DNA of 64,000 nt, taken from contig JAILZP010000003.1 in NCBI GenBank assembly GCA_023512435.1, positions 1-64,000 on the forward strand, read 5' to 3'. The notes beneath the pieces are model-generated. The model searched no databases. It saw nothing but the letters and a program-made list of their open reading frames with translations, and was not told where the DNA came from. The translations under genes were made by a program, and so were the position numbers. This DNA comes from Peptococcaceae bacterium. Lineage in GTDB: Bacteria; Bacillota; Desulfotomaculia; Desulfotomaculales; Desulfocucumaceae. Shown here in pieces: positions 4,546-32,586 of the stretch (positions within the stretch are counted from its first letter, which is position 1; every line of letters begins with the position of its first letter).

Positions 4546-6768
4546 TTACATCTGCTCCCCGAAGGTCTGGTGAAACTGTTCCAGGGTCATCTTTATGCTG
4601 CGCGGTTTGCTGCCCTCGAAACTGCCCACTATGCCGCGCCTCTCCATTATGTCCACCAGCCTGGCCGCCCTGGCGTAACCAATGTGAAGCCTGCGCTGGA
4701 GGAGCGAAATGGAGGCGGTCCCGTTTTCTATAAATATTTTCACTGCCTGGGGCAGCAGTTCGTCGTAATCTTCGTCTAAACTCCCGTTTTTTCCCTCCGC
4801 CGGGGGCGCGGTAAGAACCTGTTCGTCGTACACCGGCTGGGCCTGTTCTTTTAGATAGGTGACCAGGGCGTCCACTTCATGGTCCGACAGGTATGCCCCC
4901 TGGACGCGAATCGGTTTTGCCGCCCCCACCGGGAAAAACAGCATATCTCCCCTTCCCAGGAGCTTTTCGGCCCCTCCCGTGTCCAGGATGGTCCGGGAGT
5001 CCACCAGGGAAGAAACCGCGAAGGAGATCCGGGAAGGTATGTTGGCCTTGATCAGGCCGGTTATGACGTCCACCGAGGGCCGCTGGGTGGCGATCACCAG
5101 GTGTATCCCCGCTGCCCTTGCCATCTGGGCAAGGCGGCAGATGGAATCCTCCACGTCCGCCGGGGCCACCATCATCAGGTCGGCCAGTTCGTCTATGATG
5201 ATGACGATGCAGGGGAGGGGCTTGGGACCATCCTCAGTGCCGTTCCCGCAATTCTTGTTGTATCTCCCGATGTCCCGCACCCCTGCCTGCGCGAACAACT
5301 CATAGCGGTGTTCCATTTCCTTTACCGCCCAGCGCAGGACCCCGGCCGCCTTCTTGGCGTCGGTAACCACCGGGGAGATTAGATGGGGTATGCCGTTGTA
5401 CGTGGTCAGCTCCACCATCTTGGGATCTATCATGAGGACTTTTACCTCGTCGGGAGTTGCCTTGAACAGGATGCTGGCTATGATCGTGTTTATGCACACG
5501 CTTTTGCCCGCCCCGGTGGCTCCCGCCACCAGGAGGTGGGGCATTTTGCCCAGATCGGCCACCACCGGCGTGCCGGCTATGTCTCTGCCCAGGGCTATGG
5601 TCAATCTTGACTGGGAGTTTATAAATTCCCTGTTCTCAATCAGCTCCCGCAGGGTTACCGGAGAAATTTCCCGGTTCGGGACCTCAATGCCGACGGCCGC
5701 TTTTCCCGGTATGGGAGCCTCGATGCGGACCCCGGGGGCTGCCAGGTTGAGGGCTATGTCGTCCGCAAGGCCCACTATCCGGCTTACCTTGACTCCCGGA
5801 GGGGGCTGGATTTCATAGCGGGTAATGGCCGGCCCCACCGATATTCCGGACACCTTTGAAGAAATGCCGAAGCTTTCCAGGGTAGTTTCCAGGATGCGGG
5901 TCCGGTCGGCAATTTCCCGGTCGGAAATCTCGTTTCTGGCTTTACCTGGGGCCTTGAGCAAATTGACCGGAGGAAGGCGGTAGATGCGGCCGTCCGCCAA
6001 GGGCGCGGCCTGGATGTCGGGAATTTCGACCCGTTCTCCGGCCGCCTTCTTTTTGGTTCGGGTTTCGACTTCCTGATCAAAGGGTTTTTCTTTGGGGCGG
6101 CAAGCCGTCGCCTCCGTCAGAACCGGGGAAAGGCCTGTTGTTTCGGGTACCGGCCGTACCGGCCGCTCCTCCCGGTACTCTGCGGTGTCCGCCTCTTCGG
6201 TCAGGAAGTTGAAGATCCAGGTCCACATCCTGCTGCCGGCTTTTTTTGCCCTCAGGGCGGCCAGCAGCCCCATTTGGTCCAGCGTGTACCCGGTGATCAG
6301 GACCAGTGACACCAGGGTCAGGGAAGCCAGAATGATGTAGGTCCCCACCGTGCCGAAACAGGCCGTGGCGGCGTAAACGGCGGCGGCGCCGACGACTCCT
6401 CCCCCCATGCCCTTCAGGCCGCTGCCGAACAGATCGTCCCGGGGCATGTCCATGTGGGCCAGGGTCAGGAAAACCAGGGCCAGAATGGCAAACCCCGCCG
6501 CCCTGGGGGTAATTCTGATCCTGCTTTTCTCAAAAATAAGCTTGATCCCCGCCAGGGCAAGGGATAAAATGATCAGGTACTTGCTTTCCCCGGCCGCGAT
6601 CTCCATGCTCCTGACCAGCAGGGAACCCAGGGTGCCCAGGGCGCTGGTGAAAAGGCTGGCCGTTCCGATGGCAGCCAGGGTGACCAGGGCTATTCCCGCA
6701 AACTCGAACTTTAAGTCGTTGTTTGATTTTTTTTGCGGTTGTTTGGTGCTTTTATTTCTTACTTTCAT
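4546..6768 (-). CDS. spoIIIE: FtsK/SpoIIIE-family DNA translocase
   Basis: Septum-anchored ATPase that pumps chromosomal DNA through the division or sporulation septum. 740 residues from the chosen ATG: four or five N-terminal membrane spans (to about residue 175), a charged linker, then the motor with Walker [11 protein letters not shown], Walker [14 protein letters not shown] and the [12 protein letters not shown] segment. A C-terminal gamma winged-helix domain (about 670-735, [20 protein letters not shown]) reads the orienting DNA motifs. I prefer ATG 6768, which has GGGAGAG 4 bases upstream, over ATG 6807, which has no site. Whether it serves vegetative division or only sporulation cannot be told. 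Confidence 0.95.
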
Positions 6769-30011: not shown

Positions 30012-30043
30012 GGCCCGGCTTTAAGCTTCAGGGAGTCCGGGCC
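30012..30043. terminator. Bidirectional hairpin between convergent genes
   Basis: GGCCCGG/CCGGGCC stem overlapping the end of the channel gene; no good T run. Confidence 0.45.
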
Positions 30044-31059
30044 TGATTAATGCCCAGGGCTTCATTCTCCAGCCGGGAAAGGCTTTCTGCGGCTCCGAGC
30101 ACGATCAGGATGTCCCCCGGACGGAAGGCTTCCTCCGGCATGGGGTTTAAGATGATTTCCTTTTCCCTTTTAATGGCCAGCAGGAGGATGTTGTACTTTT
30201 CCCGCAGGCCCGAGTTTTTCAGTTCGGTGCCCGCCAGGGGCGACCGGCTGTCCAGGAATATTTCCTCCAGCTCGATGCTGACGTCTCTTGAGTCCACCAG
30301 GGTCTGAACGTAAGAAACGCTGGCGGGCTTCAGCACAGAGAGGGCCATCCTGACCCCGGCTATGGCCGAAGGGCAGATGACCAGGTCGGCCCCGGCCCGC
30401 TGCATTTTCTTTATGTTTTCCGGCCTGTTGGCCCGGGCCACCACTTTTATATTGGGGTTGAGGGCCTTTGTCGAGATGGTGATAAAAAGGTTGCCGGTGT
30501 CTTCGGGCAGTGTTGTGATAAGGCCCGAGGCGTTCTCCAGGTTCACCAGCTGCATCACCTTGTCTTCGGTGGCGTCCCCGGCGATGTATTGCACGCCCAG
30601 TTCTCTAAGCTCGTTGAGCCTTTCCGGATCCTTTTCTACAACCACGAAGTTTACTTTTTCCCTCAGCAGTTCCATTGCCGCTTCCTTGCCCACCCGGCCG
30701 GCCCCGCAGAGGATTATGTGATTTTCGAGCCTGGAAATCTTCTTGATCATTCTTCTCCTCCACCATAGTTCGGCTAATTGGCCTTCCAACAATCCCGAAA
30801 AAACATTGCTTAGAATGTAAGTGAACAGCGAAACTCCGCTTATGATGATGAACAGTGCGATCAACCGGCCTGCCGGCGTATGCGGCACTATGTCACCGAA
30901 TCCAACCGTGGTGATGGTTACAAAGGTCAGCCACAGAGCGTCTGTGACCGAAAAACCCTCTAGCTTTACAAATGCCATCGTGCCCAGGGAGACAACGATC
31001 GCCAGGGCCGCGAAGGCATTGGCGAAGGTCCTGAAAGAAGACAATACCATGCACCTCAA
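30028..31059 (-). CDS. Potassium channel with TrkA-N/TrkA-C (RCK) domains
   Basis: 343 residues. Two spans around the pore helix and selectivity filter TTVGFGD (about 52-58), then a TrkA-N NAD(P)-binding domain (IILCGAGRVGKEAA) and a TrkA-C ligand domain (about 255-330). Gates K+ flow in response to a nucleotide or ion. TTG or the ATG 3 codons in may be the start. Divergent from the LUD gene. Confidence 0.9.
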   Translation of the reverse strand: MRCMVLSSFRTFANAFAALAIVVSLGTMAFVKLEGFSVTDALWLTFVTITTVGFGDIVPHTPAGRLIALFIIISGVSLFTYILSNVFSGLLEGQLAELWWRRRMIKKISRLENHIILCGAGRVGKEAAMELLREKVNFVVVEKDPERLNELRELGVQYIAGDATEDKVMQLVNLENASGLITTLPEDTGNLFITISTKALNPNIKVVARANRPENIKKMQRAGADLVICPSAIAGVRMALSVLKPASVSYVQTLVDSRDVSIELEEIFLDSRSPLAGTELKNSGLREKYNILLLAIKREKEIILNPMPEEAFRPGDILIVLGAAESLSRLENEALGINQARTP

Positions 31060-31201
31060 AGTCTATTATAACATTGCGCCGAGGGTCTGTAACCAGGATA
31101 GCCGGGGTTATGGAAATGTTTTCCCGGCTGCGGGCGGACCGGAGGAAAAAGCAGGTTCCTGTTGAATTGATGGATAATACTATATTAGGAGGTTTTTGAG
31201 T

Positions 31202-31843
31202 ATGACTGACCTGCGGCCGTTTTTTGAGGAAAGGGCCAGGAGGGTGGTGGCGGCCCTGAATAAAAATCTTTTCGAGGGCCTTTATGTACCCACCGGGCAG
31301 CAGGCCCTGGAGGAGATCCTGAAGAGGGTGCCGGAAGGAGCCGCCGTGGGTGTGGGCGGGTCCGTGACGCTGAGGCAGATCGGGGCGGTGGAAGCCCTGA
31401 AAAAGAGGGGCCACGTGGTCTTCGACCACTGGCAGGAGGGGATCGGCCCGGCCGAGGCGGACCAGGTCCGACGCAGTCAGCTCACTTCGGATGTTTTTCT
31501 TTCCGGATCCAATGCCGTAACCGCCGAGGGGCACCTGGTGAATATAGACGGAGCGGGAAACAGGGTGGCCGCCATGACCTTCGGTCCGAAAAAAGTGATC
31601 GTGGTGGCCGGGATAAACAAGATTGTCAGGGACCGGGAAGAGGCCCTGGCCAGGATAAAAAATCAGGCTGCGCCGCTGAATTTTTACCGGCTTAACCTGC
31701 CCGCCCCGTGCGTAAAATCCACATTCTGCGCCGACTGCTCACCCCCGGCCAAGTTCTGCCGGATCACCGCCGTGACCGAGGTGAGACCTTCCGGTATACC
31801 CGAATTCGTGGTCATTATCGTTGGTGAAACCCTCGGGCTGTAA
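31202..31843 (+). CDS. LUD-domain protein (lactate-utilisation/DUF162 type)
   Basis: 213 residues from ATG, 8 bases after AGGAGG. Family marks: AVGVGGSVTLRQIG, the SGSNAVTAEGHLVNIDG motif, and the cysteine cluster CVKSTFCADC plus CRITA. LutC-like proteins sit in Fe-S lactate-oxidising complexes; standalone members like this one, with their own cysteines, are of unknown function. No lutA/lutB neighbour. Confidence 0.85.
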   Translation: MTDLRPFFEERARRVVAALNKNLFEGLYVPTGQQALEEILKRVPEGAAVGVGGSVTLRQIGAVEALKKRGHVVFDHWQEGIGPAEADQVRRSQLTSDVFLSGSNAVTAEGHLVNIDGAGNRVAAMTFGPKKVIVVAGINKIVRDREEALARIKNQAAPLNFYRLNLPAPCVKSTFCADCSPPAKFCRITAVTEVRPSGIPEFVVIIVGETLGL

Positions 31844-31867
31844 GCGCAAAAAAAACGCGAAAAATTG

Positions 31868-31900
31868 TAGAGGCCTTCTTCCTTGGGAAGAAGGCCTCTA
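31868..31900. terminator. Long perfect hairpin after the LUD gene
   Basis: TAGAGGCCTTCTTCC and its complement form a 15-bp perfect stem with a 3-base loop. The T run is missing, so it may be a terminator, an mRNA-end stabiliser, or the first element of the hairpin array that follows. Confidence 0.6.
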
Positions 31901-31937
31901 TGTCATGAGCCCGTGATGACCTGCGCTACAGCCACTG

Positions 31938-32297
31938 TGCGTATCTGCGCAGCCCATAATGACCTTTCGGCCGCTATGGACCGTTACGACACCCGCAGTG
32001 ACCTTTGCTTGACTGCCATGGATATCTTGGAAGCCTGCAATGATCTCTCGACCATTGCAGACCTCTACAACCCTGAATAAAGGTATTTCGACACCCATGG
32101 CAATCTCAGCTCGACCGGTGAACATCCCTTGCGACCGCATTGCAGTCGTTCGGACTGCAATGCAGCCTGCCGGAACACTCACCAGTCTTCCCGCCGACTG
32201 ATACCGAGCCTTTGCGACCCGGTACCAGTCTTTGGCCGACTGATACAGAGCCCTGTGGACCCTGTATCAATCTGGGCTCGGCCATCACGAACCCGTG
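31938..32297. repeat. Array of at least eight consecutive hairpins with differing but self-complementary stems
   Basis: Gene-free 31844-32586 is mostly this. Stems in order: TGCG/CGCA 31938-31951; CCATA/TATGG 31954-31979; GCAGT/ACTGC 31995-32016; CTGCAATG/CATTGCAG 32035-32060; GCATTGCAGTC/GACTGCAATGC 32137-32163; CAGTC/GACTG 32183-32200; TACCG/CGGTA 32202-32224; CAGTC/GACTG 32226-32242; GATACAG/CTGTATC 32242-32268. Loops share a GACCTTTCGGCC-like or TCTTTGGCC-like core. The units recur roughly every 20 bases. The stems differ in sequence but keep pairing. No coding or mobile-element signature. Confidence 0.75.
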
Positions 32298-32441
32298 TCT
32301 ATATTATGCTCACTTTCGGCCGGATTATTTATTATGCTGGTTTATTTTTTTTTGTAATCTAATTTTTCTCCGGGCATGATACCTGTAAGGGTATATGGTT
32401 ATCTCGCCTCTCTGATTAGTTTAATTATGGTCTTTAGACGA

Positions 32442-32478: not shown

Positions 32479-32560
32479 ATACCCTATGGGGTATACATAT
32501 TGAACCACGCTATTTTCACTCAAACCAACCCGATAGTTAGTATGTGAAACCCCATGGGGT
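32479..32560 (+). promoter_or_regulatory. Two palindromic ATACCC/GGGTAT operators, CsoR/CstR-like
   Basis: ATACCC TATG GGGTAT at 32479-32494, nine bases after the -10 box, and ACCCCATGGGGT at 32549-32560. The G/C-tract palindrome with ATA/TAT ends resembles operators of the copper (CsoR) and persulfide (CstR) repressor family. No such repressor is coded in this window. The regulator is inferred. Confidence 0.6.
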
Positions 32561-32586
32561 ATATATGAACTGCAGGGGGGAATAAG

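Follow-up and report, generated by a model that had tools for sequence, protein, structure and literature searches.

What is the run of self-complementary stems that lies between a LUD gene (31196-31843; Pfam LUD_dom) and an Fe-S/cytochrome b/TatC operon (from 32587) in the window, the 64,000-nucleotide stretch of DNA analysed here? A preliminary description had placed at 31868-32297 at least eight adjacent hairpins in units of about 20 bases. The stems named there are present, and the interval lies close to that of a real gene (approximately 31861-32295); however, they do not make up a loose array but belong to one minus-strand molecule, a structured RNA of approximately 435 nt encoded from 32295 to 31861. 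The units are also larger than proposed: each hairpin measures about 35-40 nt with a stem of about 15 bp, and several stems are nested in two-tier arms inside a closing helix, P1. Strand, unit architecture and a link to sporulation (see below) are additions to the preliminary description.

The minus strand of the segment 31840-32340 folded at -271.5 kcal/mol versus -164.6 +/- 6.7 kcal/mol for 100 dinucleotide shuffles (z -15.9), none of which (0/100) reached so low a value. The plus strand has neither the G.U pairs nor the GNRA loops of the minus strand and for that reason folded less strongly (z -8.6). The first perfect stem (31868-31900) of the originally described run is the terminator of the RNA itself; read on the minus strand, it is followed by CAATTTTT, and homologues carry an equivalent GC-rich stem and U run. 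This orientation places the RNA gene tail to tail with LUD, with its start near 32295. The 3′ end was deduced from the terminator and the 5′ end from the promoter; conservation of both elements marks the predicted gene, by its sequence, as a discrete transcription unit. An alignment of 101 copies revealed a single architecture (P1, P2, P3, P4+P5, P6+P7, P8+P9, terminator), with ten main helices of 15-17 bp, or 19 bp for P2 when its extension is counted, arranged round a six-way junction. The features in the window are as follows.

31861-32295, minus strand: structured RNA (fold z -15.9; homologues; covariation)
32280-32294, minus strand: P1 closing helix, 5′ strand, 15 bp, pairing with 31907-31921; 3 significant covarying pairs
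32234-32279, minus strand: arm 1, hairpin P2 (5′ strand 32258-32279, 3′ strand 32234-32252), 19 bp including a 3-bp extension that reaches into the linkers; 4 significant pairs
32196-32230, minus strand: arm 2, hairpin P3, 15 bp; 5 significant pairs
32113-32187, minus strand: arm 3, two-tier, P4 (32172-32187/32113-32128) and P5 (32133-32167); 6 significant pairs in P4 and 7 in P5
32011-32105, minus strand: arm 4, P6 (32088-32105/32011-32029) with a variable side loop, and P7 (32030-32065) capped by a GAGA tetraloop; 9 significant pairs in P6 and 8 in P7
31930-32003, minus strand: arm 5, P8 (31988-32003/31930-31945) and P9 (31950-31983) capped by a GAAA tetraloop; 7 significant pairs in P8 and 4 in P9; model R1, 112 bits
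31907-31921, minus strand: P1 closing helix, 3′ strand
31868-31900, minus strand: intrinsic terminator stem, 15 bp, 3-nt loop; U run at 31860-31867 after the stem

The side loop of P6 (approximately 32066-32087) is the sole AU-rich and fast-changing part of the RNA among the aligned family members, and may act as a linker or as a site peculiar to each species.

The covariation check against related genomes that had been proposed earlier was carried out on 93 sequences with an R-scape-style procedure, a G-test with average-product correction whose null redistributed Fitch-inferred substitutions along a FastTree tree. Significance at E<=0.05 was reached by 53 of the 160 structure pairs, spread across all main helices, versus 2 of 102,831 other column pairs. 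Double-sided changes were seen at 127/160 pairs, and 96% of the cells were canonical. This strong covariation shows the predicted secondary structure to be conserved. The earlier view that structure rather than sequence is kept was thus borne out by a phylogeny-aware test, as well as by homologues across the phylum, and so was the suggestion of a structured RNA. The paired changes first noticed between units reflect repeated arms within one molecule, whereas the real covariation is found between homologues.

Related elements were indeed found in relatives. BLASTN identified a second copy in the same genome (G000:C10, 75% identity) and copies in 92 of 200 relatives. Covariance models built from the 3′ part (R1, P8-P9) and the 5′ part (R2, P2-P3) were searched through the host phylum; R1 detected the RNA in 125/200 relatives and, in an even sample of 300 genomes across the phylum, in 137. 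Weak matches at the edge of detection (in G160, G198, G132, G118 and others) suggest that these genomes may hold more divergent members, which a rebuilt model would recover. An exact pattern, run against about 85,000 species, named Pelotomaculum, Desulfofundulus, Desulfoscipio, Desulfotruncus, Desulforudis, Moorella thermoacetica, M. mulderi and Carboxydocella as carriers; close variants of this pattern matched only about 60% of known copies, so absence from other species is unproven. At permissive E-values, Rfam yielded no family over the RNA in the window or in 15 homologous loci, the OLE, ROOL and GOLLD models included, and a limited search of the open-access literature returned no prior description. 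We are virtually certain that this is a real RNA family. It is absent from Rfam 15 and, by that comparison, previously uncatalogued.

Two other readings of the sequence had been set aside at the outset, and rightly so. The RNA is spanned by a 94-aa open reading frame on the minus strand, which must be fortuitous since each sense frame of the homologues holds 6-7 stops on average; a coding function was rejected on this ground. The identical direct repeats and spacers of a CRISPR array were looked for in the locus, and the only repeat found was a two-copy one, 79% identical, inside the RNA.

Copies usually number one to four per genome and occupy varied loci. In 13 of 17 genomes tested, copies from the same genome were not each other's closest relatives, indicating that they are mostly old paralogues rather than recent repeats. 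The copy in the window groups with copies of related genera, and the second, TrkA-side copy with a different set. A third copy in this genome, beside spoIVA (L242), was looked for and not found. Both copies of the host lie near TrkA-type potassium transport genes (30028-31059 in the window; L033 for the other), a proximity that is probably due to chance since most other copies are not near TrkA. Elsewhere, paired copies 0.5-2.6 kb apart (L094/L154 in Sporotomaculum syntrophicum, L106, L112) are probably local duplications.

These data bear on the notion of a DNA hairpin element, either mobile or repetitive (a MITE, a REP-like sequence or a hairpin array), which the inverted repeats, the several copies in some genomes and the close pairs in Sporotomaculum (L154) and G186 might bring to mind. 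We consider it almost certainly wrong. Copy number is usually 1-4, the two copies of the host belong to separate lineages common to related genera, and plasmids, phages and viral contigs contained no copy of the RNA. A mobile element was rejected on the latter finding together with the age of the paralogues. The two DNA-level explanations offered previously fared no better: neither a DNA hairpin array nor a fast-evolving repeat is supported, given a discrete gene that keeps its promoter and terminator, its low copy number, its orthologous loci, and G.U pairs and GNRA caps specific to one strand.

Genes next to the RNA vary, and the first gene downstream is antisense to it in 64 of 93 loci. With no constant downstream gene, cis-regulation was discarded. 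The varied neighbours led us to infer strongly that the RNA acts in trans. They also weigh, like the RNA's own terminator and the antisense downstream genes, against a riboswitch (ligand-binding) or a ribozyme (catalytic), a reading to which size, conserved junction and OLE-like ornateness would lend themselves. The fixed same-orientation site upstream of one gene class that characterizes riboswitches and leaders was not seen among these loci, and no Rfam match of this sort covered the RNA; we regard this alternative as very improbable.

When is the RNA made? The aligned upstream regions of 98 copies shared a common pattern consisting of nATAAT, about 14 bases and GGnCATAATA. The corresponding elements in the window are the following.

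32324-32330, minus strand: -35-like element AAATAAT, at positions -22 to -16 of the 98-promoter profile
32302-32311, minus strand: -10-like element GAGCATAATA; family consensus GGnCATAATA, equivalent to GGnnAnAnTA

The search pattern had preset the A, [AC], T and R of the -10 element, leaving GG (-3, -2), the second A (+3) and the -35 free; of the 98 copies, 82% had G at -3 and 76% had it at -2. Forespore sigma-F/G promoters follow the pattern GYATA-15-GGnnAnAnTR, and by motif alone we take the RNA promoter to be of this type. Since SASP genes are classical forespore targets, the regions preceding 30 of them, from 26 genomes, were scanned with the RNA promoter profile as an internal control. 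SASP promoters of the clade match that of the RNA (GnATA-N14-GGnnAnAnTA), profile sites lie 20-75 bases before most SASP start codons, and one such site in the host's own genome is GTATTTTTGATGTCTAACGGGACAAAATA (17.3 bits). In scoring that comprised two runs with slightly different base backgrounds, 15/30 SASP upstream regions had a profile match at p<=0.02, and 16/30 reached at least 12 bits as opposed to 2/306 control upstream regions (Fisher 2e-17). A sigma-A promoter was ruled out by the absence of TTGACA. The -10 element of sigma-E promoters has A where that of the RNA has T, which eliminates sigma-E as well. Because its promoter is of the same kind as those of spore-core genes, the RNA is very probably made in the forespore by sigma-F/sigma-G RNA polymerase.

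The distribution of the RNA points in the same direction. SpoIVA was present in 250/300 genomes of the even phylum sample; the RNA was found in 133 of these 250 and in 4 of the remaining 50. When these 50 were searched for SASP, 6 proved positive, including all 4 RNA carriers. Thus, 137/256 genomes with SpoIVA or SASP contained the RNA versus 0/44 with neither (Fisher 1e-13), although the phylogenetic clustering of asporogenous genomes means that Fisher values overstate independence. Among the relatives, the RNA was likewise absent from all 12 genomes lacking both markers. In two genomes, G004 of the host's own family and G059 of family f3, SpoIVA, SASP and the RNA are all missing, and these represent separate losses inside RNA-bearing families. 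About 47% of the spore formers in the phylum sample had no RNA match, which implies either that sporulation as such can do without the RNA or that divergent copies escape detection. Within approximately 4 kb of spoIVA (identified as TIGR02836), and tail to tail with it, the RNA is found in 19 genomes belonging to several families; spoVT occupies the first or second upstream position in seven loci. Together, these genomic associations make a link to sporulation well supported.

Other forespore RNAs offer a term of comparison, one of which, CsfG, is reportedly shorter than the window RNA. Bvs196 of Bacillus velezensis is a 294-nt forespore sRNA controlled by sigma-F/G; it has an effect on spore resistance and, in vitro, binds mRNAs (PMC9147052). 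As far as it is described in PMC9147052, CsfG (Marchais et al. 2011) is a noncoding RNA of the forespore that is under sigma-F/G control and conserved among endospore formers. The window RNA resembles both in its sigma-F/G-type promoter, assigned by motif only, and in its confinement to endospore formers (0/44 markerless genomes). With Bvs196 (S357) it also has in common a free-standing structured gene, an intrinsic terminator and a tie to spore formation (PMC9147052). In contrast to Bvs196, which has a folding energy of -82 kcal/mol, is reported in Bacillus only and has been proposed to act by antisense pairing (PMC9147052), the window RNA is approximately 435 nt long, folds at -271 kcal/mol round a six-way junction, is multicopy and occurs in a different group of Bacillota; this separation from Bvs196 is by described size and layout alone.

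A forespore trans-acting regulatory sRNA that pairs with mRNAs through loops or linkers could be proposed on the Bvs196 precedent (PMC9147052), promoter class and free-standing gene being the same. We find this unlikely here: almost all bases are paired, no long conserved single-stranded seed exists, and conservation resides instead in wobbles at helix ends and in linkers. The unpaired bases are confined to GNRA-like caps, short variable loops and linkers of 7-8 nt. G.U occupied 21 pairs in at least 80% of the sequences, at recurrent helix-end positions: second and fourth from the end at the base of P1, the tops of P2 and P3 and the bases of P5, P7 and P9; third from the end at the tops of P1, P5, P7 and P9 and the bases of P3 and P8. 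Helix ends thus share a wobble mark, 5′-GGUC/GGCU-3′ or GUC-GNRA-GAU. GNRA caps are GAGA on P7 in 70/93 sequences and GAAA on P9 in 83/93. The six junction linkers (GAGCCAA, GGCCAAA, GGcGGGnA, GAGCUAA, GAGCaAA and GuAGcGnA) are near-copies of GRGCNAA.

So many near-identical helix ends and linkers per molecule would also suit a sponge that titrates an RNA-binding regulator, in the manner of CsrB with CsrA or 6S RNA with RNA polymerase. CsrB and CsrC likewise contain many similar hairpins in one RNA; the window RNA differs in lacking the GGA loop pattern and in forming a single integrated fold with a closing helix, a layout that exceeds the needs of a sponge. Copies of GGA, the motif bound by CsrA, are fewer than expected (4.7 versus 9.7 per RNA), which ruled out a CsrA sponge in particular, and Rfam gave no CsrB- or 6S-type match. 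The sponge model in general appears improbable.

We incline, with slightly better than even confidence, to an architectural RNA that is made in the forespore and acts in trans. Five arms and the closing helix would radiate from the six-way junction with its six near-copy linkers; rigid helices of about 15 bp, each bearing the same wobble-marked end, would present a regular array of identical docking sites; and these could serve a spore protein, or could let RNA molecules pack against one another into a larger particle retained by the spore. Because most bases are paired and what is conserved is geometric (helix length, wobble ends, linkers), architecture or packing is favoured over antisense pairing; a scaffold or packing role in place of antisense regulation seems to us about evenly poised. 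A further, tentative possibility, on balance doubtful, is that a pseudo-symmetric six-spoke wheel, alone or with a spore protein, forms a particle in the spore core that contributes to dormancy or resistance. If true, this would be a categorically new kind of RNA, a structural counterpart of the SASP proteins. Precedents for self-assembly exist in OLE, ROOL and GOLLD, large and highly structured free RNAs, all three of which form RNA-only multimers (PMC12286853). The predicted RNA of the window shares with OLE anaerobic or extremophile Bacillota hosts, and differs from all three in the regular wheel formed by its ~15-bp helices, in the recurrent wobbles at their ends and in matching none of the three Rfam models.

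Few classes of large structured RNA span a whole bacterial phylum, and every one of them has led to new biology. The present one comes with a predicted, testable cell type and stage, the forespore, and its carriers include culturable spore formers (Moorella, Desulfofundulus). Sporulation has so far been explained almost wholly by proteins; a conserved multicopy RNA that is lost with spore genes makes an RNA role in spore building or dormancy directly testable.

The internal resemblances extend to whole arms. A model of arm 5 matched arm 3 (E 2.6e-12), as well as P7 and P2, inside the window RNA; these matches suggest that the molecule arose as arms were duplicated. In the alignment, one copy (L128, approximately 4955-5352) lacks P5 and keeps the remainder. 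Two others (L053, approximately 4957-5216, and L103, 3545-3877) are apparently without the middle part. The apparent loss of whole arms from these copies suggests a modular molecule.

Lastly, three palindromes of the type ATACCC-N4-GGGTAT (32379-32394, 32479-32494 and 32547-32562), versus 0.1 expected in the window, precede the Tat/Fe-S operon; judging from their sequence, they presumably resemble operators of the CsoR/CstR family.
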